NCBI GenBank assembly: GCA_003557545.1
Contig: PWOD01000118.1
Coordinates: 1-22,714, forward strand
From: a bacterium
Lineage (GTDB): Bacteria > T1Sed10-126
Direction: 5' to 3'
DNA: 22,714 bases
The position numbers and the translations under genes are program-made. The notes under the pieces are model-generated. The model ran no database searches. It was not told the DNA's origin and worked only from the letters and a program-made list of their open reading frames with translations. Shown here one piece after another: positions 6,001-22,714 of this stretch. Position 1 is the stretch's first letter. Each line of letters begins with the position of its first letter.

Positions 6001-8040
6001 ACTGGAACCTCGCCCGCCGGCTCTCTATTTATGGATGAAGATAAACAGATACGAGCAATCTTTGAGCGTGATGTTCATAGCTTTACGCTGGATATTGTGG
6101 GAGAGGGAACGGTTGACCTTAACGGTACTCTGTACACAGCTGATTCAGTTCCGGCGGAACTGTTTTTCTATGGTGGTGAACTGGTTGAACTGGAAGCGCT
6201 GCCCGATCTCTGGCACCAGTTTGCTGGCTGGAGCGGGGACCTTGCTGGTGATCAGTCACCCACCGAGTTGTTGATCGATTCATCAAAACAGGTCACAGCT
6301 TTGTTTGAGCAGGAAGAATATTTATTAGAAATCGATGTTGTGGGTGACGGTCAGCTGATTGTTGATGGACAGTCATATCTCACGGTGGATTTACCTGATT
6401 CACTGACTGTTTTAGCTGGTGAAACTGTTCAGCTAATTGCAGAAGCGGGGGATTATTATCACTTTGCCGGTTATCAAGGTGATCTGACAGGATTAACTCC
6501 TGTTAGGGAGTTGTTCATTGATGGGAATAAGGCTGTAACTGCAGATTTTGCGCGAGATACCCACACAATTGTTATTCAGATTGAGGGAGATGGGCAGGTA
6601 ATAGCCGATGGTAATTCGATTTTTGCTCCGGCCGCCCCTGTGGAAAAGGTTTTTTATGGCGGAGAAGAGATCGATTTTGAGGCGATCGCCGGCCAATACT
6701 ATCATTTCCTCGAGTGGGAGGGATTGCTCGCAGGTAACCCGCAGAGCAGCTCCTTGCTGGTTGATTCGGATGGGGAAATTACCGCTGTCTTTAAACGTGA
6801 TGAACATATTCTTCATCTGGATATGGTCGGACAGGGAACCGTGGAACTGGACGGTCAGCCTTATATGAAGCAGAATCTTCCTACCCAGATAAGTCTGCTT
6901 GCCGGGGAAACAGTTGAGCTGGGAGCCTTTGCCGAAGAGTTCTACAGTTTTTCTGGTTGGACCGGGGAAATTACTGGTTCCAATCCCGATGTAGAGCTGT
7001 TTATTGATGGTGATAAATATCTGACAGCGAATTTTGTTCAGGATAGTTTTACTTTAACAGTTGATTTTGATGGACAGGGGATCGTCGAGGTTGATAATGA
7101 TACATTCTCCTGGCTGAATGGGAGCTTTTCTACCACGATAATGGGTGGCGAAACAATTAGCCTCGGGGCTGAGGCTGATCAGTACTGGAATTTTGTTGAG
7201 TGGTCCGGGGACCTTACTGGGACCCTGCCGGATCAGCAGTTATATGGGGATATGGACAAGCAGCTGACTGTCAGTTTTGCCCATGCTGAATATACAGTTA
7301 CGGTCGATATAGTGGGTGAGGGAGCAGTTCAGATCGCTGGTGAGTCTGTCTATCAAACTCCAGAGTTCCCCCTAACAAGGACAGTTAAAGCCGGTGAAAA
7401 TATCGATCTGGAAGCAATTTCGGTGGACTACTGGCATTTTGTCGGATGGACCGGTGATCTGACTGCTGATGATCCCGCGCAGTCCGTTTATGTTGATGAT
7501 GATAGACAGTTGACGGTCAATTTTGAACGGGATACACAGTTGTTAGAACTGATTATTGAAGGGGCAGGTTCAGTCCAGTTAGATGGTGATATCTATTCTG
7601 GCCCGGACAGTAGTTTGATAGTGGTTGAAGCCGGGAACTATGTTGAGTTAATAGCAATTTCTGTGGACGATTGGGATTTTGCCTGGTGGGAGGAGGATCT
7701 GCAGGGCTTTGAATCTGAACAGACCCTGTTTATCGACGCTGATAAGCAGGTCAGGGCGCTGTTTGTCGAACACCTTGATACCTATCTGTTGACGATTAAT
7801 GATCCTGACTCCGGGACTATATATGTCGATGGTGTGCCGGCGGATGATGGTGAGCAATTTATCTATCCCGAAGGGGCAGTGATCAATATTGTTGCTGTTC
7901 CCTGTGCCCTGGGAGAGTATGAGTTTGATGGTTGGGAGCTGCAGGCGGATACTACTGCGACCATGATTGGAACCTCTCGTGAAACACAGATTACCATGCT
8001 GGCCGACGCTACGGTTACTGCAACCTTTACCCGGCATGGT
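1..8040 (+). repeat. Tandem array of 33 coding repeats (about 240 bp each)
   Basis: Repeat boundaries are visible as recurring D-T-Y-I-L-T-like strands, for example at 220, 466, 1198, 1453, 2674, 2917, 3160, 3394, 3880 and 4612. Unit length is mostly 78-82 codons, with longer units where insertions occur. The protein pattern is strongly conserved but most DNA copies have diverged, so the array is mainly old. The exception is the pair starting at 466 and 709, which is nearly identical over about 100 bp. One unit (1198-1452) is degenerate: it lacks the usual Trp-x-Phe core and the Asp-Lys-x-Val end. The last unit belongs to a distinct cap subtype. Confidence 0.92.
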
Positions 8041-8382
8041 TCAGGAACCATAGGAGGTTTTAGCTATGAAACCTCACTGGAGACGCTGATGGTCGGTCCC
8101 AATCCTTACAGGACTTCTGATAATTATGGTGGTATCAGGTTCCAACTGAAGCGCTCTCAGAGTCAACGGTTCCAGTTGGAGATCTATACCCTGACCGGAA
8201 CTCTGGTTTTTGTCCAGCGCTATGGCCCGGCTCAGATCTACAATGATGAATCATATACCTATATTGAGTGGGATCTTACGACAACTTCCGGGCAGAAGGT
8301 TGTCAGCGGTCATTACCTCTATAATTTCCGTGATCTGGAGAATAGAGATAATAAAACTGGAAGAATTGCCATAGTTCGTTAA
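1..8382 (+). CDS. Giant secreted InlB-B-repeat-like surface protein, 5' end outside window
   Basis: The frame is open from the first base, and codon 1 already lies inside a repeat, so the true start is upstream; the GTG at 22 is not a start. The visible 2793 residues are one partial and 32 further tandem repeats of about 80 residues, then a 113-residue C-terminal domain starting near 8041. Each repeat runs from D-T-Y-I-L-T-x-D-I through a G-x-G turn, an A-G-E turn, the core Y-W-x-F-x-x-W-x-G-D-L and an end like D-K-x-V-T-A-x-F. This is the divergent InlB B-repeat/Flg_new pattern known from bacterial surface proteins. Asp and Glu far outnumber Lys and Arg. There is no frameshift or stop over 8.4 kb. 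The next gene encodes a paralogue with the same ending. A role as an extracellular stalk, adhesin or shield is inferred; no catalytic motif is visible. Confidence 0.93.
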   Translation, partial: EIEGKGYVVVDGETIAWSDAPYEKDVDPGDIVDLSAIAAEYWEFVRWSDDLESFDPVEQLLIDGNKTVTAHFSDSYILTLDIVGQGAIEVDQQDSYGPEDMTLSLPVRGGQLVDLEAIADQFWQFDRWLGDLDSFPAGQEILIDGDKHCTAVFVRRSYIVTVDIIGQGDVEVEGDRYGPEDVPETFVVTAGEYLNLDAIAAEYWVFKEWIGDLQGRPAARELFIDGDKNCTAVFIQDTYILTVDIIGQGEVEVKGDSYGPEDVPETFVVTAGEYLDLDAIAAQYWSFEGWIGDLTGGPAARQLFIDGDKHCTAVFIQDTYILTIDIIGQGKIVYQGDSSYWPEDVPETFVVKAGEYVNLNAIPAEHWHFVEWIGDLTGPVADQDLFIDSDKYCTAVFAQDTYVITIEPPEDSPVTGVVVIDGDTYDLSDGPIDIVVGSGDTINIEFIPGDHSNFVGWEGHIGGSNPNQDFSSDTDITIEPIYEPDTFILTIDIIGEGSIVEDGTKSYYPPDVIAEIPVHYGQVVDLEAIQAEHWSFAGWIGDLTGHPANQSLFIDGDKHCTAVFTQDTYTLTIDVIGEGTVQVGDTDFRPPDLPQTIVVGAGELIDLDAIADEHWYFTGWIGDLTGQPADRYLLMDGDKHCTAVFTQDTFTLTIDIEGHGRVEDDGYPVSIYWVDVLVTRDVYAGEYVDLEAIAEEHWEFVKWTGDLDSTNPDPLLYIDGDKYVKAHFRNEFILEIDIIGEGTVTVNQDTVYYPEHTVVTIPVTGGDVFDFSALAQDQWEFVGWSGDLAGNNPDQQLVIDSDKKVIAHFRDTYVLTIDVVGQGTARVNSEDYRQPGLPEQIEFTGGELVNLNGIPDQYWRFVEWQGDLTGSQPDQQLLMLEDKFCTAVFEPVTYILEIDISGQGSVYDDGELHGVDDVIVTRVVEAGELVDLEAIADQYHHFVRWSGDIDSFDTAYQLYINGNKSVVANFSQTEYQLTIDIEGAGSIQTGDTLYTTEDVELVKTVTAGETIDFTAIADQFWEFSHWSDDLTGQLSEQVLLIDSDKRVTANFTRNQLTLELDMRGNGAIEVDGQLYEQPAIITVDAGDSFLLEALPSTYWDFNFWSEDLTGDNPLQELFVDGNKKVVANFRRDTYILTIDIVGEGNVGFGDTVYSPNDMVVTKVIEAGTTVDLEAIAEDYHQFIHWTGDLSGNQTAQQLLIDGNKTVVANFGRIQYSLIVDIEGKGQVMVDSALYSVDSVPLELTFDAGETVDLDAFPADYFHFVGWSGSLVGQPADRQLFVDGNRQVTANFARDQYTLEIDIRGQGSFEVDGVIYEESVTLTVDAGDSYALQAAADQYWHFAEWTEDLTGPELYQEIFIDQSKTVVANFERDSYILTIDIVGDTGSGDIELGGELYWQEDMVTTKIVYAGTNLEFEAVPRQYYHFVEWTGDLTGDQSENSLLVDSDKGVTAHFARDQHILEVDIEGKGSVTIDGDTVYLDSQTPVNLSVEGGQQIEFLASAGEHWHFTGWSGTLAGTQPSTSLIVEDSGRATANFARDTFLLTVEIEGEGQVEGPELIVSSENQPRVFQLYAGETIALEAIADEYYQFDFWSGDLAGSDTAARLFLDSDKTVRANFQRDTYSITLDIVGRGGVELNDQLYSDSQVSLVETVYAGDTIDLEAIAADHWYFIQWSGDLGGTVSTNQLFVDSDKNITAHFGDTYILSVDIIGQGSVLVDGNTVSSAQAPVEISVSVGQVVEFEAEAGTYYHFAGWLGDLEGTDLTEQLLIQGDKSVTAEFVRDTHVVTFDITGIGDLEIGGELYEADEFPEQLIFLAGETVSLEAIPDDFYHFVEWSGDLQGDSLQQQLFIDSDKTITANFGQDSYTLILNIEGHGELQFAGDTVYTTGDLPVTLPVFAGENYSLDALPVDYWHFLQWRDDLTGDDPSTEIFIDQDKEVTAIFAEDTQILTIEIIGQGMLDIEGDIYTDTGVIIHKVVVAGEQYSVDAIAYQYWHFSTWEGDLTGTSPAGSLFMDEDKQIRAIFERDVHSFTLDIVGEGTVDLNGTLYTADSVPAELFFYGGELVELEALPDLWHQFAGWSGDLAGDQSPTELLIDSSKQVTALFEQEEYLLEIDVVGDGQLIVDGQSYLTVDLPDSLTVLAGETVQLIAEAGDYYHFAGYQGDLTGLTPVRELFIDGNKAVTADFARDTHTIVIQIEGDGQVIADGNSIFAPAAPVEKVFYGGEEIDFEAIAGQYYHFLEWEGLLAGNPQSSSLLVDSDGEITAVFKRDEHILHLDMVGQGTVELDGQPYMKQNLPTQISLLAGETVELGAFAEEFYSFSGWTGEITGSNPDVELFIDGDKYLTANFVQDSFTLTVDFDGQGIVEVDNDTFSWLNGSFSTTIMGGETISLGAEADQYWNFVEWSGDLTGTLPDQQLYGDMDKQLTVSFAHAEYTVTVDIVGEGAVQIAGESVYQTPEFPLTRTVKAGENIDLEAISVDYWHFVGWTGDLTADDPAQSVYVDDDRQLTVNFERDTQLLELIIEGAGSVQLDGDIYSGPDSSLIVVEAGNYVELIAISVDDWDFAWWEEDLQGFESEQTLFIDADKQVRALFVEHLDTYLLTINDPDSGTIYVDGVPADDGEQFIYPEGAVINIVAVPCALGEYEFDGWELQADTTATMIGTSRETQITMLADATVTATFTRHGSGTIGGFSYETSLETLMVGPNPYRTSDNYGGIRFQLKRSQSQRFQLEIYTLTGTLVFVQRYGPAQIYNDESYTYIEWDLTTTSGQKVVSGHYLYNFRDLENRDNKTGRIAIVR
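3160..4611 (+). repeat. Three-repeat higher-order unit, two tandem copies
   Basis: Repeats at 3160-3879 and 3880-4611 match in order three by three. The first member of each triplet is a shortened repeat with a T-V-D-A-G-D-S turn and an E-D-L-T-G loop. The second has an M-V-x-T-K-x-V/I segment. The third has V-D-I-E-G-K-G and ends T-A-N-F-A-R-D. The repeat at 2674-2916 resembles the second member (3394) at the same 720-bp spacing, so the periodicity may begin earlier. This suggests block duplication of about 720-730 bp. Confidence 0.7.
8041..8379 (+). other. C-terminal FlgD-like / sorting-type domain of the first giant protein
   Basis: After the last repeat the protein changes to a 113-residue domain: a Gly-rich linker, M-V-G-P-N-P-Y, a strand of the type R-F-Q-L-E-I-Y-T-L-T-G, then Y-I-E-W-D-L, S-G-H-Y-L-Y-N and the terminal G-R-I-A-I-V-R. 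The N-P-F/Y, W-D and S-G-x-Y-x-Y pattern is that of the FlgD Ig-like fold and of C-terminal sorting domains seen on many large secreted bacterial proteins. A nearly matching domain ends the second giant protein. A role as secretion or surface-attachment signal is inferred. Confidence 0.7.
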
Positions 8383-8706: not shown

Positions 8707-8767
8707 GTACTTATATGTCATGAGTATCAGTTTTTCAGTGGTCGGTTTTTAAAAAACAGATCGTTTT

Positions 8768-8774
8768 GGGAGAG
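8768..8774 (+). promoter_or_regulatory. Ribosome binding site deciding the ATG start at 8784
   Basis: The purine run gggagag ends 9 bases before the ATG at 8784. The longer reading frame could begin at the TTG at 8766, but that codon would lie directly upstream of this run with no Shine-Dalgarno of its own. The ATG also puts a normal signal peptide at the protein N terminus. Confidence 0.7.
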
Positions 8775-8783
8775 ACAAATTTT

Positions 8784-11700
8784 ATGTCTCAGTTTAACGT
8801 TTTAAAGCTTGGCGCTTATTCAGCTTTTTCTCCCAAATTTTTTCTATTGCCGCTCTGTCTGTTTTTCCTCCTTGTACTCTTTATTTCCCCATCATTTGCT
8901 TCTACCGCTCAGCAGCTTGGTGTTGTTAATCAGCCCTCAACAACCTTTGTGAATGGGGTTATTACCGGGGAGAATGGGCAGCCGGTTCGTGTAGAGATCC
9001 AGGATAGTAGTGGTAACCGGGTGAATAATGCGGATCGGGAGGTTGTGGCTTCAATCGAAAATAACGCGGGGCCCGGCCAGCTCTCCGGAACCAGGACGGT
9101 GACCAGCTCGGGAGGAGTGGCGGTTTTTGATGATCTGCGGATTGACCGGCCCGGTGAAGGATATACCCTGTTGTTTGAAACCCGGAAATTTTCTGGAGTC
9201 CCCCTCTATCCTGTAAATGGTGATTGGAACTCCTCCGGCTCAAACCTTGAGGGACTGGATGAAGATATATCTGACAGTTTTGATATTATCGTCGAACCGG
9301 GTATCTATGTGGTTACCGTCTATGACCCGGAAGGTGGAACGATTTATATCGATGGTGTGGCTGCGGGGCACGGTGATACTTTCGTCTACTCTGAAGGGAC
9401 TGAAATATTGCTTGAGGCCGAAGCAGAAGATCTCTGGGAGTTTGACCGCTGGGGGTCCAGTGTTTCCGGAACCACTCCCACAAAAACTCTTGTGGTAGAT
9501 TCTGATAAGCAGATAACTGCTAATTTTGAGCAGCATAGTTACCAGGTCAATCTTCAGATTATTGGTGATGGGTTGGTCGTGGTTGATGGTGATACCTATA
9601 CGGAATCAGCCACCCTGGTAGTTGATCTGGACGATAATATTGATCTGCAGGCTGTTCCAGAACAGTACTGGAATTTTTATGGTTGGGATGGAGATCTGGA
9701 CGGTTCTCAACTGGAAGAGTCTCTCTTTGTTGATGAAAACAAACAGATTACGGCAATTTTTGTCCAGGATAACCATACTCTCCGGTTGGATATTCAGGGA
9801 TCGGGGACGATTGTGTTTAATGGTGGGACATACAATGAATCTCTCACCCCGGTGGAGCTTACAGTTGAGGGTGGAGAGCAGATCAACTTAGATGCTATTG
9901 CCAGCTCCGGCTGGGATTTTTATCGCTGGCAGGGTGATCTTACCAGTAGCTCTACCAGTGAACAGCTGCTAATTGATGGTGACAAGGAGATTACTGCAGT
10001 TTTTCATGGTGATCAGCCAAAGATTCATCTGGAGATAATTGGTCAGGGGGTAGTTAATATAGATGGGACTGATTATTCCTCCAGCACAGTCATAGAGATA
10101 CCGGAAGGCGAAACGGTTGATCTTGAAGCTATTGCTGCCGATTACTGGGCTTTTGAAGGTTGGGAACAGGATCTTTCGGGAACCGATCAACAGCAGATTC
10201 TGACCGTCGATACTGATAAATATGTCACAGCTCGATTTGTTCATGACACCTATACTCTTATCCTCGATATTGTTGGTGAAGGGACAGTTTACCTCGATGG
10301 GGTAGCTTATCCGGAACCGCAACTGGTAACCGTGCCCGCCGGTTCCACTCTGGATTTTGAAGCTGTTGCTGATAATTCCTGGGAGTTTATCGAGTGGCAG
10401 GATGATTTAACGAGTTCCAACCCGGAAGAGCAGCTTTATTTTAACTCCGACAAACAGGTCACAGCTTTTTTCCAGGAGGTCAGCCTTGATCTAACAGTGG
10501 AAATAGTTGGTGAGGGGACTGTCTTTGTTGATGGGAATAGTTACACACAGTCGGTTGTCATCCCGATTGATGAAGGGGAAGAGCTTAATTTTGAGTCGCA
10601 GCCTGCTGAATATTATAGTTTTTTCGGCTGGGAGGAGGATCTGACCGGGACAGATTTCCAGCAGACTCTTCAGGCCGATACCAATCTATTTGTCCGGGCG
10701 ATTTTTCAACGAGATACCCATATCCTGACAGTTGATGCTGAAGGGGAGGGTAAAATTGTTGTTGCCGGGGATAGTTACTGGGCTGAGGATTTACCGGAAA
10801 CTATTGTTGTCGATTCCGGGTTAACCCTTGATTTTGAAGCGATTGCAGCGGACAACTGGTATTTTGCTAACTGGACCGGTGATCTCACCGGGACTACCAG
10901 GCAGCGGCAGCTGTTAATTGATTCTGATAAATCGCTTTCTGCTATTTTTGATGAATCGGAGTTGACGCTGCAACTGGATATTATTGGCGATGGTGCTGTG
11001 CATCTTCGAGGCACAACCTATCTTGAGTCGGTAACTTTACCGATTGAGGAGGGGGAAACTTTAGAGTTTACAGCCCATCCTGAAGACTATGTGAGTTTTT
11101 CGGGATGGTCCGGTGATTTAACCGGTACTGCTTTGGATGAGCAGCTTACCGTAACGGGCAATCAATATGTAGCTGCCCGTTTTATCCGGGACACATATAT
11201 TTTAACTGTTGATATAGAAGGGCGCGGCTCGGTGGCGGTGGACGGTGAGGTTTATAGTCAGGATGATCTGGTTACTCAGCTGGTAGTTTCGGCCGGCCAG
11301 CATCTGGATTTTCAGGCCACGGCTGCCAGTTACTGGTCATTTGTTGAGTGGACCGGAAATATCACCGGGAGCAACCCGGACGAGCAGCTCTTTATCGACG
11401 GGGATAAAACTGTTACCGCTCATTTTGAACATGATCAATATCGGGTCGCTGTCGATGTTGATGGGCTGGGTGACCTGCTGATTGATGGTCAACTTTATGA
11501 AAATCAACAGTTCGACACTGAGTTTTTTGTTAACGGTGGCGACCAGCTGGATTTTGAAGCTTTACCTGCTATTGGGTGGAGTTTTGTCCGTTGGGAGGAT
11601 GATTTGAGCGGGTCGAGCGCTTCCGAAGAGCTTTATGTTGATTCTGATAAACAGGTCGTGGCCATCTTTGAAGAACGGAATTACACTCTGACGGTTAATA

Positions 11701-14700
11701 TTGAGGGACAGGGGACTGTTGACTTAGAGGGAACTGCTTACCCCACCGATAGTGCTCCGCTGACTTTGACTGTCCCGGCCGGTGAAACTCTGGAGTTAGA
11801 AGCGATTGAGTCAGCAGCGGACTGGAGTTTTGTTGGTTGGTGTTGTGATTTAAGTAGCACTGAATTTTTTGAAACTATTACAGTTGATGCTGACAAAGAG
11901 GTTACTGCTAACTTCCAGGCCGAACAATATACGCTCACCATAGATTTCCAGGGGGCCGGAGAGATCGATATAGATGGTGTGCTTTACAGCCATGAGGATG
12001 GTCTGCAGGAAATAACCGTATCAGCCGGTGACCAGCTGGATTTTATCGCAATCCCCGCTACTGGCTGGGAATTTGATGAGTGGCAGGATGATCTTACGGG
12101 GACTCTTCCTGAAGAAAGCTTGACGATTGATTCTAATCACCATGTAACGGCTGTTTTCGAACGGGAAACATATAATTTAATGCTTGACATTAATGGCCAG
12201 GGTTCGGTTGAAATAAATGGACAGATCTATACCGGGCCGGAAATAATTTCTGTTGATTATGGGACCGAACTGGAGTTTATTGCCGATCCGGATGAAGGGT
12301 GGAATTTCAGTGGTTGGGAGGATGACCTTACCGGTCATAATTTAGAAGAACAGCTGGAAGTGGTTTCTAACCATGCCGTAACAGCGAACTTTCAACAGAT
12401 CACCGAATACAATCTTCTGCTTGATATAGTTGGTCAGGGTTCAGTCAATCTGCAGGGGGATAGTTATACGCAGGATGATGTGACCGAGACTTTTACCTTT
12501 CAATCGGGAACAACGATCGACCTGTCTGCCATTGCTCATGTTGATGGTTGGAGTTTTATTGAGTGGGAGGGGGATCTGCTGGGTCCTCAGCCAGTCCAAG
12601 AACTTTTTATGAATTCTGACAAGCATACCACCGCTGTCTTCGGACAACCTGATTACACCTTGATTGTTGATATGGAGGGTGATGGAGTGGTTGTGGTTGA
12701 CGGTGAAACATATACGGAACGGACTGAAATACCGGTTTTTGATGGACAGCAACTTGATTTCCAGGCAGTTTCCGGGGAAGGCTGGTTTTTTGATCGCTGG
12801 CAGGGGGATCTGATTGGATCCGATAGTTCACAGCTGCTGCCGATCGATGGAAACAAAGAGGTTGTTGCCCATTTTGATCGCTACAACCTTACCCTCGACA
12901 TTGTCGGTGAGGGAGCGGTTGTGGTTGATGGTGAAACCCATAGTTCAGCTTTTGTAGAGTCGGTTGATCCAGGGCAGAATATTGAGTTTGTAGCGATCCC
13001 GGAGGAGGGATGGAGCTTTGATCGCTGGTCAAACGATCTTGATGGATCTGACCCTGAGGAGTCGCTTTATATCGATTCCAGTAAATCTGTCCAGGCGATT
13101 TTTGTTCGGGATACCTACAGTTTGACGATCGATATTGAGGGCCAGGGAACTGTAACAGCCCGTGGAGACAGTTATCGACCACCGGATGTGCCGAAAACTA
13201 TTGTTGTTAATGCCGGCGAAACTGTCGATCTTGAGGCGATTGCTGACCAATACTGGAATTTTGATCGCTGGACCGGCGACCTGTCCGGCTCTAACCCTGC
13301 CCGCCAGATTGTTGTTGATTCAAACAAATCAGTTACTGCCCATTTCAGGGATACCTTTATTTTAACTGTCGATATAGTTGGCGAGGGTTATGTGGTGGTT
13401 GATGGTGAGACGGTCAGCTATCAGGATGCAGCAGTAAATATTCCGGTCGATGGCGGTCAGACTGTTAATCTGGAAGCGATTCCTGAAGAATACTGGGAAT
13501 TTATCCAGTGGACGGGAGACCTTAGCGGATCTAATCCTGATGGTGAACTATATATTGATTCTGACAAATCAGTTACAGCCCATTTTGAAGAGGAAGAGCT
13601 AACTCTGACTATAGATATTGTCGGACAGGGGTCGGTTGTTGCCGATGGTGAAACCTATACATTCCCCACCGTTATTCCGGTTACTCGCGGTCAGGTTGTT
13701 GATCTGGGAGCCTTCCCCGCTGACGGCTGGTTTTTCGATAGATGGGAAGATGATCTGTCAGGCAGTAATCCTGACGAGGAAATTTTAATTGATGAAAGTA
13801 AAACAGTTACGGCAGTTTTCGATCGTTGTGCGCTTGTTCTCGATATTATTGGTGAAGGTTCGGTTATTGTTGCGGGCGAGACCTATACCCATAATGATGT
13901 TCCTACTGATGTTTTAGTCAGCTGTAGTGATTCTGTCTGTCTGGAGGCGATCGCCGATACCGGCTGGCATTTTGTTGAGTGGCGGCGTGATCTTCAGGGA
14001 GACAATCCAGAAGAATCGATTTTCATTGATTCCAGCAAAGAGGTGACAGCTGTATTCGCCCGTGACACATATACTCTGACGATTGATATCGAAGGGGAGG
14101 GCACAGCAGTGGCTGATGGTGAAAGTTATCGGCCACCGGATGTTCCTGAAACTATCGTGGTTGAATATGGTCAGGAGATCGATTTTGATGCTTTTGCTGA
14201 CTCGGGCTGGTTCTTTGAAGGATGGAGTGGTGATCTGACCGGATCTAATCCGGAACAATCCCTGATAATAGACTCTAACAAGCATGTTACGGCTCATTTT
14301 GTCGATACCTTTGTCCTTGAAATTGATATTGTGGGGGAAGGGATTGTAACTGTTGGTGGAGAGATTGATGGGGATACGGTTACGCCGGACAACGTTGTCT
14401 GGCGGGTTTATGTTGAACCGGGAACAACCGTTGATCTTGAGGCTATAGCCGCTGAACACTGGCATTTTGACCGTTGGACCGGTGATCTCTGGGGGTCTAA
14501 TCCCAACAGGGAAATCTACATGGATTCAAATAAATCGGTCACGGCACATTTTAAAGAAGACACCTTTATTCTCCGGGTGGACATAATCGGTGAGGGTAAT
14601 GTGGTGGTTGATGGTGAAGAGTATACCCCGGACGACGTGGTGGTGGAGATTCCGGTGGTCGCCGGACAGACGATTGATTTTGAAGCGATAGCGGATGAAT

Positions 14701-17700
14701 ACTGGTATTTTGATCGTTGGACCGGAGATCTTGGAGGGTCTGACACCGAGACCTCATTATTTATTGATTCGGACAAGAATGTAACGGCTGTTTTTGATCA
14801 GTATCAACTGATCATTGATATAGTCGGAGACGGTAATGTAGTGGTAGATGGTGAAACCCATTCTCAACGGGTTCAGAAGACAGTTAAACCGGGTGCGACC
14901 ATCGAGCTTGATGCATTTCCTGAGGAATACTGGCAGTTTATTCAATGGACCGGTGATATAAACAGTCCGCTTCCCGAGCAGGATCTTTATATCGATTCAG
15001 ATAAACATCTGACTGCTCATTTTGAGCGTGACACCTATACGTTGATCGTTGATATAGTCGGAGAGGGAACCGTTGATGTGGATACTGAAACTTTAGGTCC
15101 ACCCGATGTTCCCAGGGAGTTCGTGGTTGAAGCCGGTCAGGCAATTGATTTTGAGGCCATAGCCGACCAGAACTGGCATTTTGAAGGTTGGACCGGTGAT
15201 CTGGGGGGAGACAATCCGGAACAGCAGCTGATTATCGATTCAGATAAACATGTGACCGCCCACTTTAGTGACTCCTACACCCTTCTGGTTGATATTGTGG
15301 GTGAAGGTACAGTTGATGTTGATGGGGTGAGCTATGGACCTGATGATGTCGTTGTTGAAATTCCTGTGGTCGGTGGGCAGCTGGTTGATCTTGATGCAAT
15401 CGAGGTTGATGGCTGGTATTTTACCGGCTGGACCGGCGATCTTTCAGGAGATGAAAACTCTCAGCAGCTGCTCATAGATTCGAATAAGAGTGTCACTGCC
15501 CATTTTCAGGATACTTTTATATTAATTGTTGATATTGTGGGAGAAGGTTATGTGCTGGCCGATGGCCAGTTATATAGCGATTCGGATGTTCCGGTTCAGA
15601 TACCTGTGGCGGCCGGCTCTACGGTAAATCTTGATGCTTTCCCGGAGGATTTATGGAATTTTGTCGAGTGGACCGGGGATCTGAGCGGGTCGAGACCCGA
15701 CCAGCAACTTTTCTTCGATTCTGATAAACATGTTATCGCTAATTTTACCCCCGACACTTATACCTTGACAATCGATATTGTCGGGGAGGGTTTTGTTAAC
15801 GCTGAAAATACAATTTATGATACGGATGATGTCGTGGTTGAGCTGACCGTCTCTGCTGGGGATTCCTTTTCCCTTGATGCTTTTCCCGCTGATTATTACA
15901 GTTTTGTTCATTGGTCAGGAGATCTTCAGGGTCCACAATCTGCGCAGGATCTGTTTATTGATGGTGATAAACAAGTAACTGCCCATTTTCAACGTGACAC
16001 CTATATTTTAGAGATAGATATCAAAGGTTCGGGCATGGTAGATGCTGATGGTGAGTTGTATGATACCGGTGATATTATTGTGGAAAAAATTGTTGATGCC
16101 GGGCAAACTGTTGATTTAACGGCAATAGCTGCAGCCAACTGGCGTTTTGTTAACTGGTCAGGTGATTTGACAACAGATAATCCTGAAGAGCAGATCTATA
16201 TTAATTCTGATAAACATGTGACCGCCCACTTTACTGATAGTTATATTCTTCAACTGGATATAGTTGGTGAGGGTATGGTGATTGTCGACGGGGAGACCTA
16301 TCTACCGGAAGATGTTCTGGTTGAAATACCTGTCCAGGGTGGAGATCTGTTAGATTTTGAGGCTATTGCCGCTGATAATTGGAGTTTTGTTGAATGGTCT
16401 GTAGATCTTAGCGGTAGCGCTTTGCAGGAGCAGTTGCTGATTGATTCAGATAAAAAGGTGGTTGCAAATTTCCAGCGTGATACCTATATAATCGAACTGG
16501 ATATTGAGGGGGCCGGAACGGTTGAACTTGATGGAACCCTTTATACTGTGGAAGATGTGGTTGTAGAAAAAACTGTTTATGCCGGTCAAACTATTGAGTT
16601 TGAAGCTACTGCTGACGATTACTGGTATTTTGTTGAATGGAGCGGTGATCTCACAGGAACTGAGCTTAATGAAAGTTTAGTTGTTGACGGCAACAAACAG
16701 GTAACAGCTCATTTCGGCCGGGATAGTTATATTTTGACTATCGATATCGAGGGCCAGGGGGCGATTGATCTTGACCAGGATCTTTACACGGTTGATGATG
16801 TTCTGGCCACCCGAACTGTTTATTCCGGAGAAATAATTAATTTTGAAGCAATCGCCGATACCTACTGGCAGTTCTCTAACTGGTCCGGTGATCTGTCCAC
16901 CACATCTCCTCAAGAGGAGTTACTTATAACATCAGATAAAACTGTGGTGGCCAATTTTATTCAGGACGAGTTGACCGTTATTTTAGATATTGAGGGCCGG
17001 GGGACGGTTGAGTTTGATGGGACAGTTTATGATCAGGATGATGTTGAAGTGGAAATCAATGTACTTCCCGGTGAGACTATCGATTTGGTTGCGGATCCGG
17101 CTGCCGACTGGCATTTTATCGGCTGGACGGGAGATCTATCCGGTGACACACCGGTGCGGCAGCTCTATGTTGATTCTAACAAACATGTTACTGCTAATTT
17201 TGGTCGAGACAGCTACATTCTTGAAATTGATATTCAGGGCCAGGGTATGGTGGAAGCCGGCGGCCAGCTTTATACGGTTGACCAGGTTGTTGTTGAAAAA
17301 ACAGTCTATGCTGGAGAGACGATTGCTCTGGAGGCAATTGCTGCTGATTACTGGGAGTTTATTGAGTGGTCTGGAGATCTTACCGGTAATTCTGTCGTAA
17401 AACAGCTGTTGATTGATGGTAATAAGCAGGTTACAGCTCATTTTGCTGCTGTTGAGTATACGGTTCTGATTGATATTGCTGGTGAAGGGACCATCGAGGT
17501 TGATAATCAGAGTTTTACCCATGAAGATGTTGTTCATCAGATGACTGTTTCGGGTGGAGAAACCGTGCTGTTTGAGGCGTTTGACGATCTGACCTGGCAG
17601 TTTACCGGTTGGTCGGGGGATCTGTCCGGCTCCAATCTCCAGCAAATAGTTTATGTCGATCAAGATAAGGCTGTAACTGCTGTTTTTGAATATATACTGT

Positions 17701-18779
17701 ATGATTTGATAGTTAACATTGAAGGGGAAGGGTCTGTGCTGGTTGACGGCGATACAGTCTCTCATTCGGCGGCCCCGTTTGAGGACAGTTTTGAACCCGG
17801 GGAAAACATCGAACTGGAGGCTATATCACCTCAGTACTGGAGTTTTTCCGGATGGACTGGAGATCTAACAGGAGCCAGCCCAACCGGTAGTTTGACTATG
17901 GATCAAAACAGGGAGGTTACTGCTCATTTTACTCGCGACACCTACATAATCAGTCTTGATATTGAAGGTGAAGGGGCGGTAAATCTTTTAGGTGAGACCT
18001 ATACCCATCAAAGCGGGACTGTCACCATAGTTGCCGATGCCGGCGATTTTGTTAATTTCCGGGCTACCCCTTCCGACTATTGGATTTTCTCAGAATGGCA
18101 GGATGACATTCAAAGCTTCCAGCCGGAGGAGAGCTTATTTATTGATGGAAACAAATCTGTCACGGCAATCTTTGTGGAAGATTTGCCAACCTATATCTTA
18201 ACCATTGAGGATCCTGATTCCGGGACAATTCTTGTTAATGGTGAACCGGCTGCTGATGGTGAAACCTTTGACTTTGATCCGCTGACAGAAGTCGACCTGG
18301 AGTTGGTAGTTGACCATGGGTATGAATTTGAAGAGTGGCTGGGTGACATTCATCTGTTTATAGGAGATACTTTTTCCAGAACGATGGTAATCAGAATGAC
18401 CGATAATGCAACTATTTCGGCCAAACTTCGGACATCCGGTTCTGCGGTGATTGGTGGCTCCAGTTACAGCGGTGGCTTAAATAGTCTCATGGTTGGACCA
18501 AATCCGTTTAATTCCTCAACCGATGATCTGATCCGCTTTCAATTTGAGGTTACTCAGAGTGAACGATTTTTACTTGAGATATTTACTATTTCTGGAAATC
18601 TGGTTTATCAGCGCCGTTATGGGCCCGGGGATATTCGTAGTTTCAGTGATAAAAACTATCTTGAATGGGATCTATCGAACAATTCTGGACATACGGTATC
18701 CAGTGGCCATTATCTGTATAATTTGCGTGACCTGGACGCGGGCGATCAGCAGAGTGGACGTATCGCGATAATCCGTTAA
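8784..18779 (+). CDS. Giant secreted InlB-B-repeat-like surface protein (complete, 3331 residues)
   Basis: Residues 1 to about 39 form a signal peptide: a Lys at 8 and 18, a hydrophobic core at about 19-34 and a likely cleavage after S-F-A. Residues of about 44-140 look like an invasin/Ig-type domain (V-N-Q-P-S near its start, then R-V-E-I-Q-D-S-S-G-N and V-F-D-D-L-R-I-D). From residue 174 to 3219 there are 38 tandem repeats of about 80 residues of the divergent InlB B-repeat/Flg_new type. Residues 3220-3331 are a FlgD-like C-terminal domain ending G-R-I-A-I-I-R. The protein is extremely acidic, consistent with a high-salt environment. It is a paralogue of the preceding gene, sharing repeat type, last-repeat subtype and C-terminal domain. 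A stalk, adhesin or protective-layer role is inferred; no enzymatic motif is seen. The 10-kb frame has no interruption. Confidence 0.96.
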   Translation: MSQFNVLKLGAYSAFSPKFFLLPLCLFFLLVLFISPSFASTAQQLGVVNQPSTTFVNGVITGENGQPVRVEIQDSSGNRVNNADREVVASIENNAGPGQLSGTRTVTSSGGVAVFDDLRIDRPGEGYTLLFETRKFSGVPLYPVNGDWNSSGSNLEGLDEDISDSFDIIVEPGIYVVTVYDPEGGTIYIDGVAAGHGDTFVYSEGTEILLEAEAEDLWEFDRWGSSVSGTTPTKTLVVDSDKQITANFEQHSYQVNLQIIGDGLVVVDGDTYTESATLVVDLDDNIDLQAVPEQYWNFYGWDGDLDGSQLEESLFVDENKQITAIFVQDNHTLRLDIQGSGTIVFNGGTYNESLTPVELTVEGGEQINLDAIASSGWDFYRWQGDLTSSSTSEQLLIDGDKEITAVFHGDQPKIHLEIIGQGVVNIDGTDYSSSTVIEIPEGETVDLEAIAADYWAFEGWEQDLSGTDQQQILTVDTDKYVTARFVHDTYTLILDIVGEGTVYLDGVAYPEPQLVTVPAGSTLDFEAVADNSWEFIEWQDDLTSSNPEEQLYFNSDKQVTAFFQEVSLDLTVEIVGEGTVFVDGNSYTQSVVIPIDEGEELNFESQPAEYYSFFGWEEDLTGTDFQQTLQADTNLFVRAIFQRDTHILTVDAEGEGKIVVAGDSYWAEDLPETIVVDSGLTLDFEAIAADNWYFANWTGDLTGTTRQRQLLIDSDKSLSAIFDESELTLQLDIIGDGAVHLRGTTYLESVTLPIEEGETLEFTAHPEDYVSFSGWSGDLTGTALDEQLTVTGNQYVAARFIRDTYILTVDIEGRGSVAVDGEVYSQDDLVTQLVVSAGQHLDFQATAASYWSFVEWTGNITGSNPDEQLFIDGDKTVTAHFEHDQYRVAVDVDGLGDLLIDGQLYENQQFDTEFFVNGGDQLDFEALPAIGWSFVRWEDDLSGSSASEELYVDSDKQVVAIFEERNYTLTVNIEGQGTVDLEGTAYPTDSAPLTLTVPAGETLELEAIESAADWSFVGWCCDLSSTEFFETITVDADKEVTANFQAEQYTLTIDFQGAGEIDIDGVLYSHEDGLQEITVSAGDQLDFIAIPATGWEFDEWQDDLTGTLPEESLTIDSNHHVTAVFERETYNLMLDINGQGSVEINGQIYTGPEIISVDYGTELEFIADPDEGWNFSGWEDDLTGHNLEEQLEVVSNHAVTANFQQITEYNLLLDIVGQGSVNLQGDSYTQDDVTETFTFQSGTTIDLSAIAHVDGWSFIEWEGDLLGPQPVQELFMNSDKHTTAVFGQPDYTLIVDMEGDGVVVVDGETYTERTEIPVFDGQQLDFQAVSGEGWFFDRWQGDLIGSDSSQLLPIDGNKEVVAHFDRYNLTLDIVGEGAVVVDGETHSSAFVESVDPGQNIEFVAIPEEGWSFDRWSNDLDGSDPEESLYIDSSKSVQAIFVRDTYSLTIDIEGQGTVTARGDSYRPPDVPKTIVVNAGETVDLEAIADQYWNFDRWTGDLSGSNPARQIVVDSNKSVTAHFRDTFILTVDIVGEGYVVVDGETVSYQDAAVNIPVDGGQTVNLEAIPEEYWEFIQWTGDLSGSNPDGELYIDSDKSVTAHFEEEELTLTIDIVGQGSVVADGETYTFPTVIPVTRGQVVDLGAFPADGWFFDRWEDDLSGSNPDEEILIDESKTVTAVFDRCALVLDIIGEGSVIVAGETYTHNDVPTDVLVSCSDSVCLEAIADTGWHFVEWRRDLQGDNPEESIFIDSSKEVTAVFARDTYTLTIDIEGEGTAVADGESYRPPDVPETIVVEYGQEIDFDAFADSGWFFEGWSGDLTGSNPEQSLIIDSNKHVTAHFVDTFVLEIDIVGEGIVTVGGEIDGDTVTPDNVVWRVYVEPGTTVDLEAIAAEHWHFDRWTGDLWGSNPNREIYMDSNKSVTAHFKEDTFILRVDIIGEGNVVVDGEEYTPDDVVVEIPVVAGQTIDFEAIADEYWYFDRWTGDLGGSDTETSLFIDSDKNVTAVFDQYQLIIDIVGDGNVVVDGETHSQRVQKTVKPGATIELDAFPEEYWQFIQWTGDINSPLPEQDLYIDSDKHLTAHFERDTYTLIVDIVGEGTVDVDTETLGPPDVPREFVVEAGQAIDFEAIADQNWHFEGWTGDLGGDNPEQQLIIDSDKHVTAHFSDSYTLLVDIVGEGTVDVDGVSYGPDDVVVEIPVVGGQLVDLDAIEVDGWYFTGWTGDLSGDENSQQLLIDSNKSVTAHFQDTFILIVDIVGEGYVLADGQLYSDSDVPVQIPVAAGSTVNLDAFPEDLWNFVEWTGDLSGSRPDQQLFFDSDKHVIANFTPDTYTLTIDIVGEGFVNAENTIYDTDDVVVELTVSAGDSFSLDAFPADYYSFVHWSGDLQGPQSAQDLFIDGDKQVTAHFQRDTYILEIDIKGSGMVDADGELYDTGDIIVEKIVDAGQTVDLTAIAAANWRFVNWSGDLTTDNPEEQIYINSDKHVTAHFTDSYILQLDIVGEGMVIVDGETYLPEDVLVEIPVQGGDLLDFEAIAADNWSFVEWSVDLSGSALQEQLLIDSDKKVVANFQRDTYIIELDIEGAGTVELDGTLYTVEDVVVEKTVYAGQTIEFEATADDYWYFVEWSGDLTGTELNESLVVDGNKQVTAHFGRDSYILTIDIEGQGAIDLDQDLYTVDDVLATRTVYSGEIINFEAIADTYWQFSNWSGDLSTTSPQEELLITSDKTVVANFIQDELTVILDIEGRGTVEFDGTVYDQDDVEVEINVLPGETIDLVADPAADWHFIGWTGDLSGDTPVRQLYVDSNKHVTANFGRDSYILEIDIQGQGMVEAGGQLYTVDQVVVEKTVYAGETIALEAIAADYWEFIEWSGDLTGNSVVKQLLIDGNKQVTAHFAAVEYTVLIDIAGEGTIEVDNQSFTHEDVVHQMTVSGGETVLFEAFDDLTWQFTGWSGDLSGSNLQQIVYVDQDKAVTAVFEYILYDLIVNIEGEGSVLVDGDTVSHSAAPFEDSFEPGENIELEAISPQYWSFSGWTGDLTGASPTGSLTMDQNREVTAHFTRDTYIISLDIEGEGAVNLLGETYTHQSGTVTIVADAGDFVNFRATPSDYWIFSEWQDDIQSFQPEESLFIDGNKSVTAIFVEDLPTYILTIEDPDSGTILVNGEPAADGETFDFDPLTEVDLELVVDHGYEFEEWLGDIHLFIGDTFSRTMVIRMTDNATISAKLRTSGSAVIGGSSYSGGLNSLMVGPNPFNSSTDDLIRFQFEVTQSERFLLEIFTISGNLVYQRRYGPGDIRSFSDKNYLEWDLSNNSGHTVSSGHYLYNLRDLDAGDQQSGRIAIIR
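9303..18440 (+). repeat. Tandem array of 38 coding repeats (about 240 bp each)
   Basis: Units average about 80 codons and follow the consensus strand D-T-Y-I-L-T-I-D-I-V-G-E-G, then V-D-G-x-x-Y, V-x-A-G-x-x-V-D-L-E-A-I-A, Y-W-x-F-x-x-W-x-G-D-L-x-G and L-x-I-D-S-D-K-x-V-T-A-H-F. Some units start short by several residues (12882, 13827, 14802). One unit beginning near 14310 has an insertion after the first strand. The first unit (9303) and the last share the distinctive subtype D-P-x-x-G-T-I-x-V/I-D/N-G. All units are in one continuous frame. Confidence 0.92.
12648..15509 (+). repeat. Four-repeat higher-order unit, three tandem copies
   Basis: Three blocks of four repeats can be aligned position by position: 12648-13595 (948 bp), 13596-14558 (963 bp) and 14559-15509 (951 bp). 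The first member of each ends in F-D-R or F-D-Q. The second is a shortened repeat starting 12882, 13827 and 14802. The third carries P-P-D-V-P (repeats starting 13110, 14064 and 15030). The fourth starts after a shortened linker such as H-F-R-D-T-F. The DNA has diverged, so the block duplications are not recent. Confidence 0.75.
18441..18776 (+). other. C-terminal FlgD-like / sorting-type domain of the second giant protein
   Basis: Residues 3220-3331 have a Gly/Ser linker, M-V-G-P-N-P-F-N, R-F-L-L-E-I-F-T-I-S-G, L-E-W-D-L, S-G-H-Y-L-Y-N and the end G-R-I-A-I-I-R. This is the same domain as at 8041-8379, conserved over its full length including the R-Y-G-P segment in the middle. Conservation of the ending in two repeat proteins suggests a shared export or anchoring route, which is inferred. 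Confidence 0.72.
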
Positions 18780-18954: not shown

Positions 18955-21900
18955 ATGTACAAGCGTTTTACTCTGGTTTTGTTGTTGATTGGCTGTTTAT
19001 TAGCTGGAACATTCATTTCACCAAACTTTGTAGTTGATTCTCACGCGCGGTCTCGCGCGAGGGTTGCTGAACTGCAATCACTTTCAGCCGATTATTCGGC
19101 TCGCTGGCAGCGGGATCGTTCTGAAATTGAGCAGTTTGCTCAGCAGCGGGGGATAGAGATAAGACGTGAGTTCGCGGACGGGCGGGTTGTTGAACTTGTG
19201 CGGATGCGAAATGGTTTTCCTATGTTTTATCAAACACTTAACCGTGATGCGGCTGAGCTGTCGGGGGTTAATGAGCTCTGGCCCGGTGGGGCGACCGACG
19301 TTGATCGAACGGGTAGCCAGCTGGCCACCGGTCATTTGGGAATCTGGGATGGTGGCCGGGTACTTTTAGAACACCAGGAGTTTAACGGTCGTGTTCAGCA
19401 GCGTGATGGTGCAGATATGAATTCGGATCATGCCACTCATGTGGCCGGGACAATGGTCGCCGCGGGAGTCCAGGCGGCGGCCCAGGGGATGAGTTATGAG
19501 GCCAATCTCGACGCCTATGATTGGAATGATGATTATGCTCAAATGGCCAGTGCTGCAGCCGGCGGAATGCAAGTGTCCAATCATTCTTATGGGTATATAA
19601 GAGGCTGGAATTATCATTCATTTGATGGATGGGAATGGCATGGTAATCCCACTGTCAGTCAGCAGGAAGATTATCTTTTTGGGTTTTATTCTGAAGAAAC
19701 TGAGATAGTTGATGAAATCGCCTATGCGGCACCTTATTATTCGATTGTTTGGGCGGCAGGAAATGATCGATTGTTTGGACCTGAGACTCAACCAGTAGAA
19801 CATTGGGTTCAGACTGCTCCTGATACTTGGGAACTAAGTATGGCGGAAAGAGATTGGGATGGTGGCCCTGAAGGTTATACTGCAATTTCAGGTTCTGCTG
19901 TAGCAAAAAATCTGATTGTCGTTGGGGCGGTCGATAAAGCTCGTCAGATGACCGATTTCAGTTCCTGGGGACCGACCGATGATGGACGGATAAAACCGGA
20001 TATTACGGCTGCAGGTCAGGATGTTTATTCGCCCATATCTGACCATACAAGTGCTTATGAGTCCTGGTCTGGTACTTCGATGGCGGCGCCGGTGGTTACG
20101 GGGTCGATCGGGCTGCTTCAGGAGCAGCATCAGGAGTTGTACGGAAGAGCACCGCTTTCCTCGACGGTGCGGGCCCTGTTAATCCATACGGTTGATCAGA
20201 CCGGGGATGAGGGACCTGATTACCGGCATGGCTGGGGGCTGTTGAATGCTGAACGGGCCGCCGGAGTTCTGGAAATGAACGACCAGGTCGGGGGGGATAG
20301 TTTTGTTCGTGAGGTGGCGCTGCAGAATAATCATCAATATAATTACACTGTTGAAACTGATGGGCAGGATCCGCTCAAGCTGACGATCGCCTGGACCGAT
20401 ATTCCGGGAACTCCTGTCTCTCCGCAGCTTAATCCAACCGATTTGATGCTGGTCAATGACCTTGATTTAAGAGTCATCGGTCCTGACCAGACCGTTCATA
20501 AGCCGTACATACTTGATCCTGCTAACCCGTCTCAGCCGGCGACAACCGGCGATAATTATCGTGACAATGTTGAGCAGATCTATATTGCCGATCCTCAGCC
20601 GGGAGAGTATATAGTTTCAATATCACACAAGAATTCCCTGGAAAATGACAGTCAGATATTCTCGCTTGTCTCTTCCCATGAACTGCTAAACAAACAGGTG
20701 GATGGGCCGTCAAATCTGTTGACCAACCAGTTTTTTGAGGAGTGGAACGACGAACCTGTTGGCTGGGACTGGAATGGTGCGGCCGGACGGATTAAACAGC
20801 TTGATTCCGATCCGCTGGTTGGTGAGTATAATGTTGGACTTGTTCCGATCGGTGGGCATAATATTCTCGAACAAATAGTTGATGGCAAGGAGGCTGTGAC
20901 TTATCATGCGGAGCTCTGGGTCCGGGGAACCGACGGTGTGAAAGTTCGGCCCGGAATCCGACGTGATGGCCATAACCATTATGGTGATTATCAGGAGTTA
21001 GAAAACAATCAATGGGTGAAACTAACTCACACCCGCGATAGCCAGGACGGAGAAGATGATGGACTGTTAATTTCAGTTGTAGAAAGTGAGACTGGTGAGC
21101 GCCCGCCGGTTGAGGTGGGGGCGGCCTGGCTGGGGATTCAGCCACCGCCGGATGGCTGGCTGCAGATCGATACTCCGTTAACCGATCCGACCCTGCATCC
21201 CACTGCAACTGAGTTTGATCTGGCTGATCCGTTTGATCTGGAGAGTTTTATTGAGTGGGGAGATGCTTCCGTTGTGGAAGTTGTTACCGGTGAAGGGATA
21301 ACCGGGAGCGATTGGACGGTTGAGGGGGATATGTTAATTATTAAGGCTGATTTTTTAACTGCCTTCCAACCGGCTGAACAGCTCGAATTTACCGTTAGTT
21401 TTGACCAGGGAGAAGATCAGTTATTCACCGTTGAAATTACCGATTCGTCGGCGCCGCCCACGGGGGTCTGGCGTTACATATTCGCTCCGGTCGGCCAGGC
21501 TGATGCCGCACTTTTACTCAGTCCCCAGGGACATGCTGCGGTAATCGACGCCGGTTTTCATCATGATGATAATGCGGGCTACCGGACGGCAATTTTCACC
21601 GATCTTCTCGATCATCATGGGGTTGAGGAGATCGAAACACTGGTTATTACTCACCCACATTATGACCATATTTCAATCATGCCGACTTTACTTGAAAACT
21701 ATCAGGTCAATCAGGTCTGGGATATTGAAAATAATCATACCGCGGTAACATATAACCATATCTTGAATCTGATCGACCAAAAAAATATCGACTATTATCA
21801 GCTTTACCGGGGTGATGTCGGGGAGCTTGTCCCGGGTCTTGAAGTGGATATTATCAATCCCACCGATCCACCGCCTACCGATAATAATGGCTCGGTAAGT

Positions 21901-22714
21901 CTGAATGAAGCTTCACTTAGCTTTCCCATTGAAATAAATGGTGTGACCATACTTACCACCGGAGATGCCTATATTGCGCAGGAGGATGAGTGGGTTAACC
22001 AGGGGCTTATCAGTAATGTTGATATTCTTAAAGTTGGTCATCACGGAAGTCACAGTTCGACCGGGGATCTTCTACTTTCCCACACTTCACCCGATGTTGC
22101 AATAATTCCCGCCCCGGAGGATAGTCCTCACGGGCACCCCCATGGGGTCACTCTTGATCGTCTGGATGCTGCCGGTGTAACCTACTACCAGACTGGACTT
22201 CATGGGTATTTCGATGTCAGCATTGATCTGTCTGATCCACCGGGGACCTACAGTTATCAGACCTATCAGCCCTGGGAATCTTTTCCGGGTGAAGAATCCG
22301 AAAATATTTTGGAAAATCAGTACATGGAAGATTGGATTGATGCATCAACACTTGAACACTGGAATATCGGCACGCAGGCCGGTCGCTCGGCTGCTTCTGA
22401 AGGTCTGGTTGGAGATTATTCTATTCATCACCAATATAGCTTCGCCGGTCCTTATGAAGATGATCAGGAGTTCATCCATTCGCTGGCCGGCGGCCAGAGT
22501 TTAACCTATAAGGGAGAGATCTGGGTTCGTGGCCAGGGTGATGTAAGAATTGGTATTCAACGTCCCGGATACACACAGGCGACCTATGGTGACTGGCATA
22601 CAGTCGATAGTGTGCAATGGGAGAAGTTAACCCATCAGGTAGAAAAAGATGATCGAGAGGGGACGGAAGGGCTGTTCAGGATACAGAATAAAAGAACAGA
22701 TGGGGAGGATAATA
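18955..22714 (+). CDS. Secreted subtilisin-like (S8) protease fused to X2-like and ComEC-type MBL domains, 3' end outside window
   Basis: The frame is open to the window end (1253 visible residues). Residues 1 to about 31 are a signal sequence and about 32-120 a propeptide-like region. The S8 protease domain has Asp132 (I-W-D-G-G), His159 (H-A-T-H-V-A-G-T, with Ala for the usual Gly), oxyanion Asn270 (A-A-G-N-D) and Ser375 (G-T-S-M-A-A-P), so it should be active. Residues of about 460-577 resemble the C-terminal beta domain of KP-43-type subtilases (L-V-N-D-L-D-L, D-N-V-E-Q). A jelly-roll-like module (about 585-728) and an X2-like module (about 748-831) follow. A metallo-beta-lactamase fold domain (about 839-1090) has H-P-H-Y-D-H at 900-905, Asp1004 and V-G-H-H-G-S-H at 1027-1033, closest to the ComEC/Rec2 C-terminal type. 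A second jelly-roll-like module starts near 1117. It probably acts outside the cell; the MBL substrate is unknown. Confidence 0.93.
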   Translation, partial: MYKRFTLVLLLIGCLLAGTFISPNFVVDSHARSRARVAELQSLSADYSARWQRDRSEIEQFAQQRGIEIRREFADGRVVELVRMRNGFPMFYQTLNRDAAELSGVNELWPGGATDVDRTGSQLATGHLGIWDGGRVLLEHQEFNGRVQQRDGADMNSDHATHVAGTMVAAGVQAAAQGMSYEANLDAYDWNDDYAQMASAAAGGMQVSNHSYGYIRGWNYHSFDGWEWHGNPTVSQQEDYLFGFYSEETEIVDEIAYAAPYYSIVWAAGNDRLFGPETQPVEHWVQTAPDTWELSMAERDWDGGPEGYTAISGSAVAKNLIVVGAVDKARQMTDFSSWGPTDDGRIKPDITAAGQDVYSPISDHTSAYESWSGTSMAAPVVTGSIGLLQEQHQELYGRAPLSSTVRALLIHTVDQTGDEGPDYRHGWGLLNAERAAGVLEMNDQVGGDSFVREVALQNNHQYNYTVETDGQDPLKLTIAWTDIPGTPVSPQLNPTDLMLVNDLDLRVIGPDQTVHKPYILDPANPSQPATTGDNYRDNVEQIYIADPQPGEYIVSISHKNSLENDSQIFSLVSSHELLNKQVDGPSNLLTNQFFEEWNDEPVGWDWNGAAGRIKQLDSDPLVGEYNVGLVPIGGHNILEQIVDGKEAVTYHAELWVRGTDGVKVRPGIRRDGHNHYGDYQELENNQWVKLTHTRDSQDGEDDGLLISVVESETGERPPVEVGAAWLGIQPPPDGWLQIDTPLTDPTLHPTATEFDLADPFDLESFIEWGDASVVEVVTGEGITGSDWTVEGDMLIIKADFLTAFQPAEQLEFTVSFDQGEDQLFTVEITDSSAPPTGVWRYIFAPVGQADAALLLSPQGHAAVIDAGFHHDDNAGYRTAIFTDLLDHHGVEEIETLVITHPHYDHISIMPTLLENYQVNQVWDIENNHTAVTYNHILNLIDQKNIDYYQLYRGDVGELVPGLEVDIINPTDPPPTDNNGSVSLNEASLSFPIEINGVTILTTGDAYIAQEDEWVNQGLISNVDILKVGHHGSHSSTGDLLLSHTSPDVAIIPAPEDSPHGHPHGVTLDRLDAAGVTYYQTGLHGYFDVSIDLSDPPGTYSYQTYQPWESFPGEESENILENQYMEDWIDASTLEHWNIGTQAGRSAASEGLVGDYSIHHQYSFAGPYEDDQEFIHSLAGGQSLTYKGEIWVRGQGDVRIGIQRPGYTQATYGDWHTVDSVQWEKLTHQVEKDDREGTEGLFRIQNKRTDGEDN

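Follow-up and report, generated by a model that had tools for sequence, protein, structure and literature searches.

The question raised by this locus is whether a subtilisin-type (S8) protease and a metallo-beta-lactamase (MBL) domain of the ComEC type are truly joined in one exported polypeptide and, if so, what such an enzyme might do. The window, that is the whole stretch of 22,714 nucleotides that was analysed, is the complete contig C133 of a metagenome-assembled genome (MAG; 2,151,867 bases in 239 contigs) that can be assigned with strong support to the phylum T1Sed10-126. This phylum, Candidatus Busufiota, is represented by two genomes, 2.15–2.2 Mb in size, that derive from the sediment of hypersaline soda lakes (PMC11382960); two T1Sed10-126 MAGs have also come from the Odiel saltmarshes (PMC12942990). 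Our comparison within the phylum is a comparison of two genomes, one of them isolate T1Sed10_126. On the + strand, an open reading frame (ORF) at 18955–22713 begins with an ATG, which is preceded by TTTAGGAGCAAAAAC and has an AGGAG ribosome-binding site just ahead of it. The frame continues without a stop for 1253 codons and then exits the contig end: as the window is the complete contig, the fusion gene is cut by the end of the assembly and no stop codon is reached. ORF analysis, Pfam and a residue check bear out what had been claimed in the sequence-only reading, namely that both hydrolase sites are intact in a single frame behind a secretion signal. The domain order is signal peptide, S8 subtilase, jelly-roll-like module, CBM_X2, ComEC-like MBL and second jelly-roll-like module, with the following features:

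18955..19047, + strand: signal peptide, about residues 1–31 (sequence)
19048..19329, + strand: probable propeptide, about residues 32–125 (alignments with S8 homologues of several phyla begin at ~residue 30; putative function)
19330..20262, + strand: S8 subtilase catalytic domain, about residues 126–436 (Pfam PF00082, 4e-36; SubHal/KP-43 PDB chains, 1e-24; residues checked)
20263..20679, + strand: subtilase C-terminal beta domain of KP-43/SubHal type, about residues 437–575 (alignment to 5fax reaching residue 572)
20692..21174, + strand: jelly-roll-like (CBM_4_9-like) module 1, about residues 580–740 (homologous modules in C210, C206, C154 and G001)
21196..21432, + strand: CBM_X2 module, residues 748–826 (PF03442 above cut-off)
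21451..22266, + strand: ComEC-like MBL domain, residues 833–1104 (PF00753, TIGR00361, AlphaFold, structure matches, alignment and residues)
22288..22713, + strand: jelly-roll-like module 2, residues 1112–1253, cut by the contig end (54% and 49% identity to modules in C153 and C210)

The known part of the fusion protein is very acidic (pI 4.35), a composition that would fit an exported protein of a halophile. Just upstream, the window encodes two giant exported repeat proteins on the + strand (1–8382 and 8766–18779; at least 2793 and ~3330 residues). They consist of divergent B-repeats of the InlB type (PF18998), with 23 such stretches in the first protein, and their tails both weakly resemble the C-terminal domains of type IX secretion (CHU_C, E-values 0.003–0.009; T9SS PorU model, 2e-5). 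For the second of these, an ORF of 3337 residues, translation probably starts later than the assigned TTG: an ATG that lies six codons further on (8766–8783; MSQFNVLKLG...) heads a stretch that resembles a signal peptide.

In the N-terminal half, the Pfam model Peptidase_S8 (PF00082) matches residues 145–428 (4e-36, 125 bits against a cut-off of 21.8), and the catalytic triad is complete, with D132, H159 and S375 exactly at the positions assigned to them beforehand and the oxyanion residue N270 also present. The nearest solved chains amongst PDB sequences are SubHal and KP-43 (E-value about 1e-24), and the alignment takes in the C-terminal beta domain as far as residue 572: these alkaline subtilases (1wmd, 5fax) share both the catalytic and the beta domain with the fusion protein, but end after the beta domain, whereas the fusion protein continues for ~680 residues that include the MBL. 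Homologues that are 43–48% identical over residues ~30–575 were found in several other phyla. Their lengths vary, and one of those scanned carries Laminin_G_3, fibronectin III and He_PIG modules at its C-terminus, so that residues 1–575 would appear to be a standard type of exported protease with a probable propeptide, behind which different lineages attach different, exchangeable modules.

Turning to the MBL half, Pfam Lactamase_B (PF00753) matches residues 848–1051 above cut-off (3e-7), whilst the NCBIfam ComEC_Rec2 model (TIGR00361) matches residues 829–1082 (1e-22) with 80 bits, below the model cut-off of 190. The metal site is complete, with all of the ligands that had been proposed (H900, H902, D904, H905, D1004 and H1029/H1030) in place and with N984 (motif III), S1032 and H1061 also present. 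An AlphaFold model of residues 575–1253, computed with 37 relatives, displays the alpha-beta/beta-alpha MBL fold together with the metal site, in agreement with the sequence-only reading: the pLDDT is 88–98 over most of the domain, dips to ~71–74 around an extra loop after D865 and is low outside the MBL, including the linker stretches between modules. Comparison with solved structures gave a consistent ranking: in phmmer searches the MBL matched the ComEC MBL domain (9ic4, 9e-18), full ComEC chains and, more weakly, the pneumococcal phosphorylcholine esterase Pce (4e-6); Foldseek placed 9ic4 at the top (target TM-score 0.88), followed by Pce; and VIA-align 2 aligned 261 residues with both, at Z 32.5 and rmsd 2.3 for 9ic4 and at Z 27.6 and rmsd 2.9 for Pce. 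Judged by these sequence and structure matches, the fusion MBL belongs to the ComEC branch of MBL domains.

The likeness to the C-terminal MBL of ComEC/Rec2 extends over the fold, the order of motifs, the motif III Asn and the GHHGS motif and makes this domain the best match in both sequence and structure; however, the fusion protein exhibits neither the competence channel nor the OB fold, has HxHxDH rather than HxDxDH as motif II and places the MBL within an exported modular protein. A ComEC orthologue was hence rejected, given that there is no channel domain and that the score lies far below the TIGR00361 cut-off. Only one segment of the fusion protein, the signal peptide, scores as transmembrane, and the region upstream of the MBL consists of the S8 protease and adhesion modules. 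It had previously been suggested that a ComEC-type MBL outside the membrane is out of its usual setting in DNA uptake: the location in an exported chain holds, but such a setting is ordinary, as membrane-anchored, single-domain or multi-domain secreted relatives are very common. Kinship to ComEC alone does not link the fusion MBL to DNA uptake. Haloarchaeal proteins combining an MBL with a lamin-tail domain (Hlac_1867) have been described, and extracellular DNA has been proposed as their target (PMC5118699). These proteins and the Bacillales S-layer plus MBL proteins (Alkalihalophilus) are, like the fusion protein, exported modular ComEC-like MBLs from salt-loving or alkaliphilic microbes, although unlike it they have no protease domain.

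The ComEC domain acts in vitro as a Mn-dependent phosphodiesterase, endonuclease and 5'-3' exonuclease (PMC8579336, PMC12455585). In characterised ComEC nucleases the second His of motif II is replaced by Asp (HxDxDH) and motif III provides an Asn, where Pce has a His (PMC8579336). The fusion MBL displays features of both, with a Pce-like motif II (HPHYDH, i.e. HxHxDH) and a ComEC-like motif III (N984), and metal and substrate may differ from those of the characterised ComEC nucleases. HxHxDH is also found in many full-length membrane relatives of ComEC, and therefore motif II leaves the substrate undecided; the motif II counts from our search of genome contigs with the MBL alignment are biased, since one of its patterns demanded THPH.

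These features lead to the first alternative, in which the MBL would resemble Pce in function, as an esterase or phosphodiesterase whose targets are cell-surface polymers or lipids (teichoic-acid-like polymers, phosphocholine or other head groups), with the subtilase and the adhesive modules aiding access. Pce/CbpE (2bib, 1wra) is itself a secreted modular MBL with the HxHxDH motif, in its case not fused to a protease; it is the second-best fold match (Z 27.6) and is also matched by sequence, and the fusion protein shows no DNA-binding module. ComEC is nevertheless clearly the better match (Z 32.5 versus 27.6, phmmer 9e-18 versus 4e-6), motif III carries an Asn as in ComEC in place of the His of Pce, and no choline-binding repeats were found in a Pfam scan of the known part, the C-terminus lying beyond the contig. 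We thus regard a Pce-like activity as unlikely.

The modules that link the two hydrolases bear on a second alternative. Pfam CBM_X2 (PF03442) matches residues 748–826 (2e-9, 37.9 bits against a cut-off of 28.9) and occurs as a single copy in the genome. Flanking the CBM_X2–MBL pair, two modules (~580–740 and 1112–1253) are homologous to each other (32% identity), whilst the jelly-roll label given to them in the sequence-only reading is plausible but unproven: module 1 has a marginal Pfam CBM_4_9 match below cut-off (E-value 0.03), module 2 has no Pfam CBM_4_9 match, and the models in which they appear all-beta are of low confidence (pLDDT 47 for module 1 alone). Such modules recur on further contigs of the same genome (C153, C210, C206 and C154) and in the sister genome, and on C210 the module adjoins a lamin-tail-like domain that scores just below cut-off. 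In both Ca. Busufiota genomes, several of the large exported proteins (L003, L004, L007, L008 and L039) share a family of ~150-residue jelly-roll-like modules with no clear Pfam match. Subtilases of the KP-43/SubHal type bear propeptides and mature through cleavage, and it could be that the subtilase of the fusion works mainly on its own chain or on partners, freeing or activating the MBL after export, such that the fusion would serve as a device for delivery and maturation. The low-pLDDT linkers between the modules and the presence in the same genome of a solo MBL unattached to a protease are compatible with this, but no cleavage site was identified in the chain and related subtilases with other C-terminal modules suggest simple module exchange, which makes such a role quite unlikely.

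As to the origin of the fusion, the same genome encodes (contig C77) a protein of 518 residues that starts with a single membrane segment and ends in a different C-terminal domain, its MBL sharing 54% identity with the fused MBL. The sister genome has a counterpart (L015, PWHN01000052, isolate T1Sed10_126) with an MBL 59–60% identical to the fused one; these two proteins are 49% identical to each other over their full length, and neither carries a protease. The next nearest MBLs, among the matches listed, are ~30–39% identical. The simplest reading is that the anchored extracellular MBL of the phylum was duplicated and then moved behind an S8 protease, to which it would have been joined via modules widespread in the lineage; the solo anchored relatives further suggest that the same MBL may work on the outside of the cell with no need of a channel. 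Amongst the anchored solo MBLs, two (L002, 913–2469, - strand; L040, 411–2018, + strand) share a conserved ~190-residue C-terminal domain with no meaningful Pfam match, and a protein from another phylum (L037) has a C-terminal extension similar by eye to that of the solo MBLs of this phylum. A 1669-residue ORF from Myxococcota (L090, 3–5009, + strand) exhibits an N-terminal ComEC-like MBL followed by ~1350 residues without a Pfam match. Given that the fusion occurs in one genome only and that the sister genome has solely the solo MBL, the chain could also be a chance shuffle of domains with no joint function, comprising two independently useful secreted modules or one that is decaying: this appears very unlikely, as both active sites are complete despite 40–57% divergence from their nearest relatives and the lineage's own modules flank the MBL on both sides.

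An assembly artefact joining two genes, which would have undone the architecture altogether, is very improbable and was rejected as such on assembly-level sequence checks: although the MAG is in 239 contigs and the contig ends inside the gene, the frame is open over four module junctions, GC3 is 0.41–0.51 in all five segments, the modules on either side of the MBL come from one lineage-specific family, and when 19955–22713 was searched as DNA against its own genome, the one match besides itself was a stretch of 65% identity within the C77 MBL, so that no repeat across the junctions was found that could bridge two genes.

In order to place the architecture in a wider context, we looked for both halves in other sequence collections. 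Among 176 fetched loci, 45 ORFs contain the S8 part only and 127 the MBL part only, both being present solely in three overlapping copies of the fusion gene itself. Whole-protein searches reaching about 500 distinct genomes, in which not every weak candidate was scored, gave, among the matches listed, no further genome in which a single frame encodes the two halves; plasmid and phage collections gave one half or the other among the matches listed, and nowhere in them was 80% of the protein covered; viral contigs contained distant MBL relatives only; and a scan of genome contigs detected relatives with the MBL alignment but none when the full protein served as query. No protein combining S8 and MBL domains was described in the literature searched, which covered few subscription journals. 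The fusion is absent elsewhere within the data searched, in keeping with the architecture having gone unrecognised at first reading, and uniqueness is not thereby proven. The S8 plus MBL fusion is a new combination of two kinds of protein, the secreted modular MBL and the modular subtilase, that are each already known. AVAST type 1 defence systems likewise pair an MBL with a protease: they comprise the MBL protein Avs1a, a separate protease and a STAND ATPase encoded by separate intracellular genes, in contrast to the one chain with signal peptide and carbohydrate-binding module found here. A defence pair of this type was rejected: the Avs1a model scores 35 bits against a cut-off of 420 and the neighbouring genes encode giant exported repeat proteins.

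The reading that we prefer, to which we would assign an even chance, is that the fusion is a scavenging enzyme bound to the surface or matrix, with predicted protease and phosphodiesterase/nuclease activities. The protein would be exported and the subtilase would mature upon removal of its propeptide; CBM_X2 and the jelly-roll-like modules would anchor the chain to polysaccharide, matrix or the cell surface; the subtilase would cleave proteins, and the MBL, as a putative binuclear metal hydrolase of the ComEC-CTD/Pce branch, would cut phosphodiesters, most likely those of extracellular nucleic acid, such that protein-DNA debris or biofilm matrix could be degraded at one spot. In favour of this scavenging role are Pfam domains above their cut-offs, the presence of all catalytic residues and the ComEC nuclease domain as the closest predicted fold, along with the apparent kinship to exported alkaline proteases of the KP-43/SubHal type, the recurring jelly-roll-like modules and the acidic pI; dual hydrolysis by the two domains is a reasonable conjecture, beyond what sequence evidence could confirm. 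Against it speaks the DHIS motif of the MBL, where the relatives in the alignment mostly have DHIGG or DHxGG. Nor does the MBL seem to favour DNA as substrate, being strongly acidic (2% K+R), with no OB fold, helix-hairpin-helix or other DNA-binding domain alongside it in the known part. Since the MBL combines an acidic surface with a motif II resembling that of Pce and has no DNA-binding module beside it, its substrate may be a different phosphodiester. That the fusion represents an undescribed class of exported bifunctional enzyme, with protease and nuclease or phosphodiesterase in one chain digesting nucleoprotein or biofilm matrix at the site to which it is bound, is a proposal that we put forward tentatively and consider less probable than its negation. 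The parts are familiar and the surprise is accordingly moderate. If both sites are active, however, one protein would couple proteolysis to phosphodiester cleavage outside the cell, offering a clue to debris feeding by an uncultured soda-lake phylum and a salt- and alkali-tolerant tool for breaking biofilms. Our findings add support to the view that ComEC-type MBL domains may be general extracellular hydrolases that move among modular proteins and are not bound to DNA uptake.
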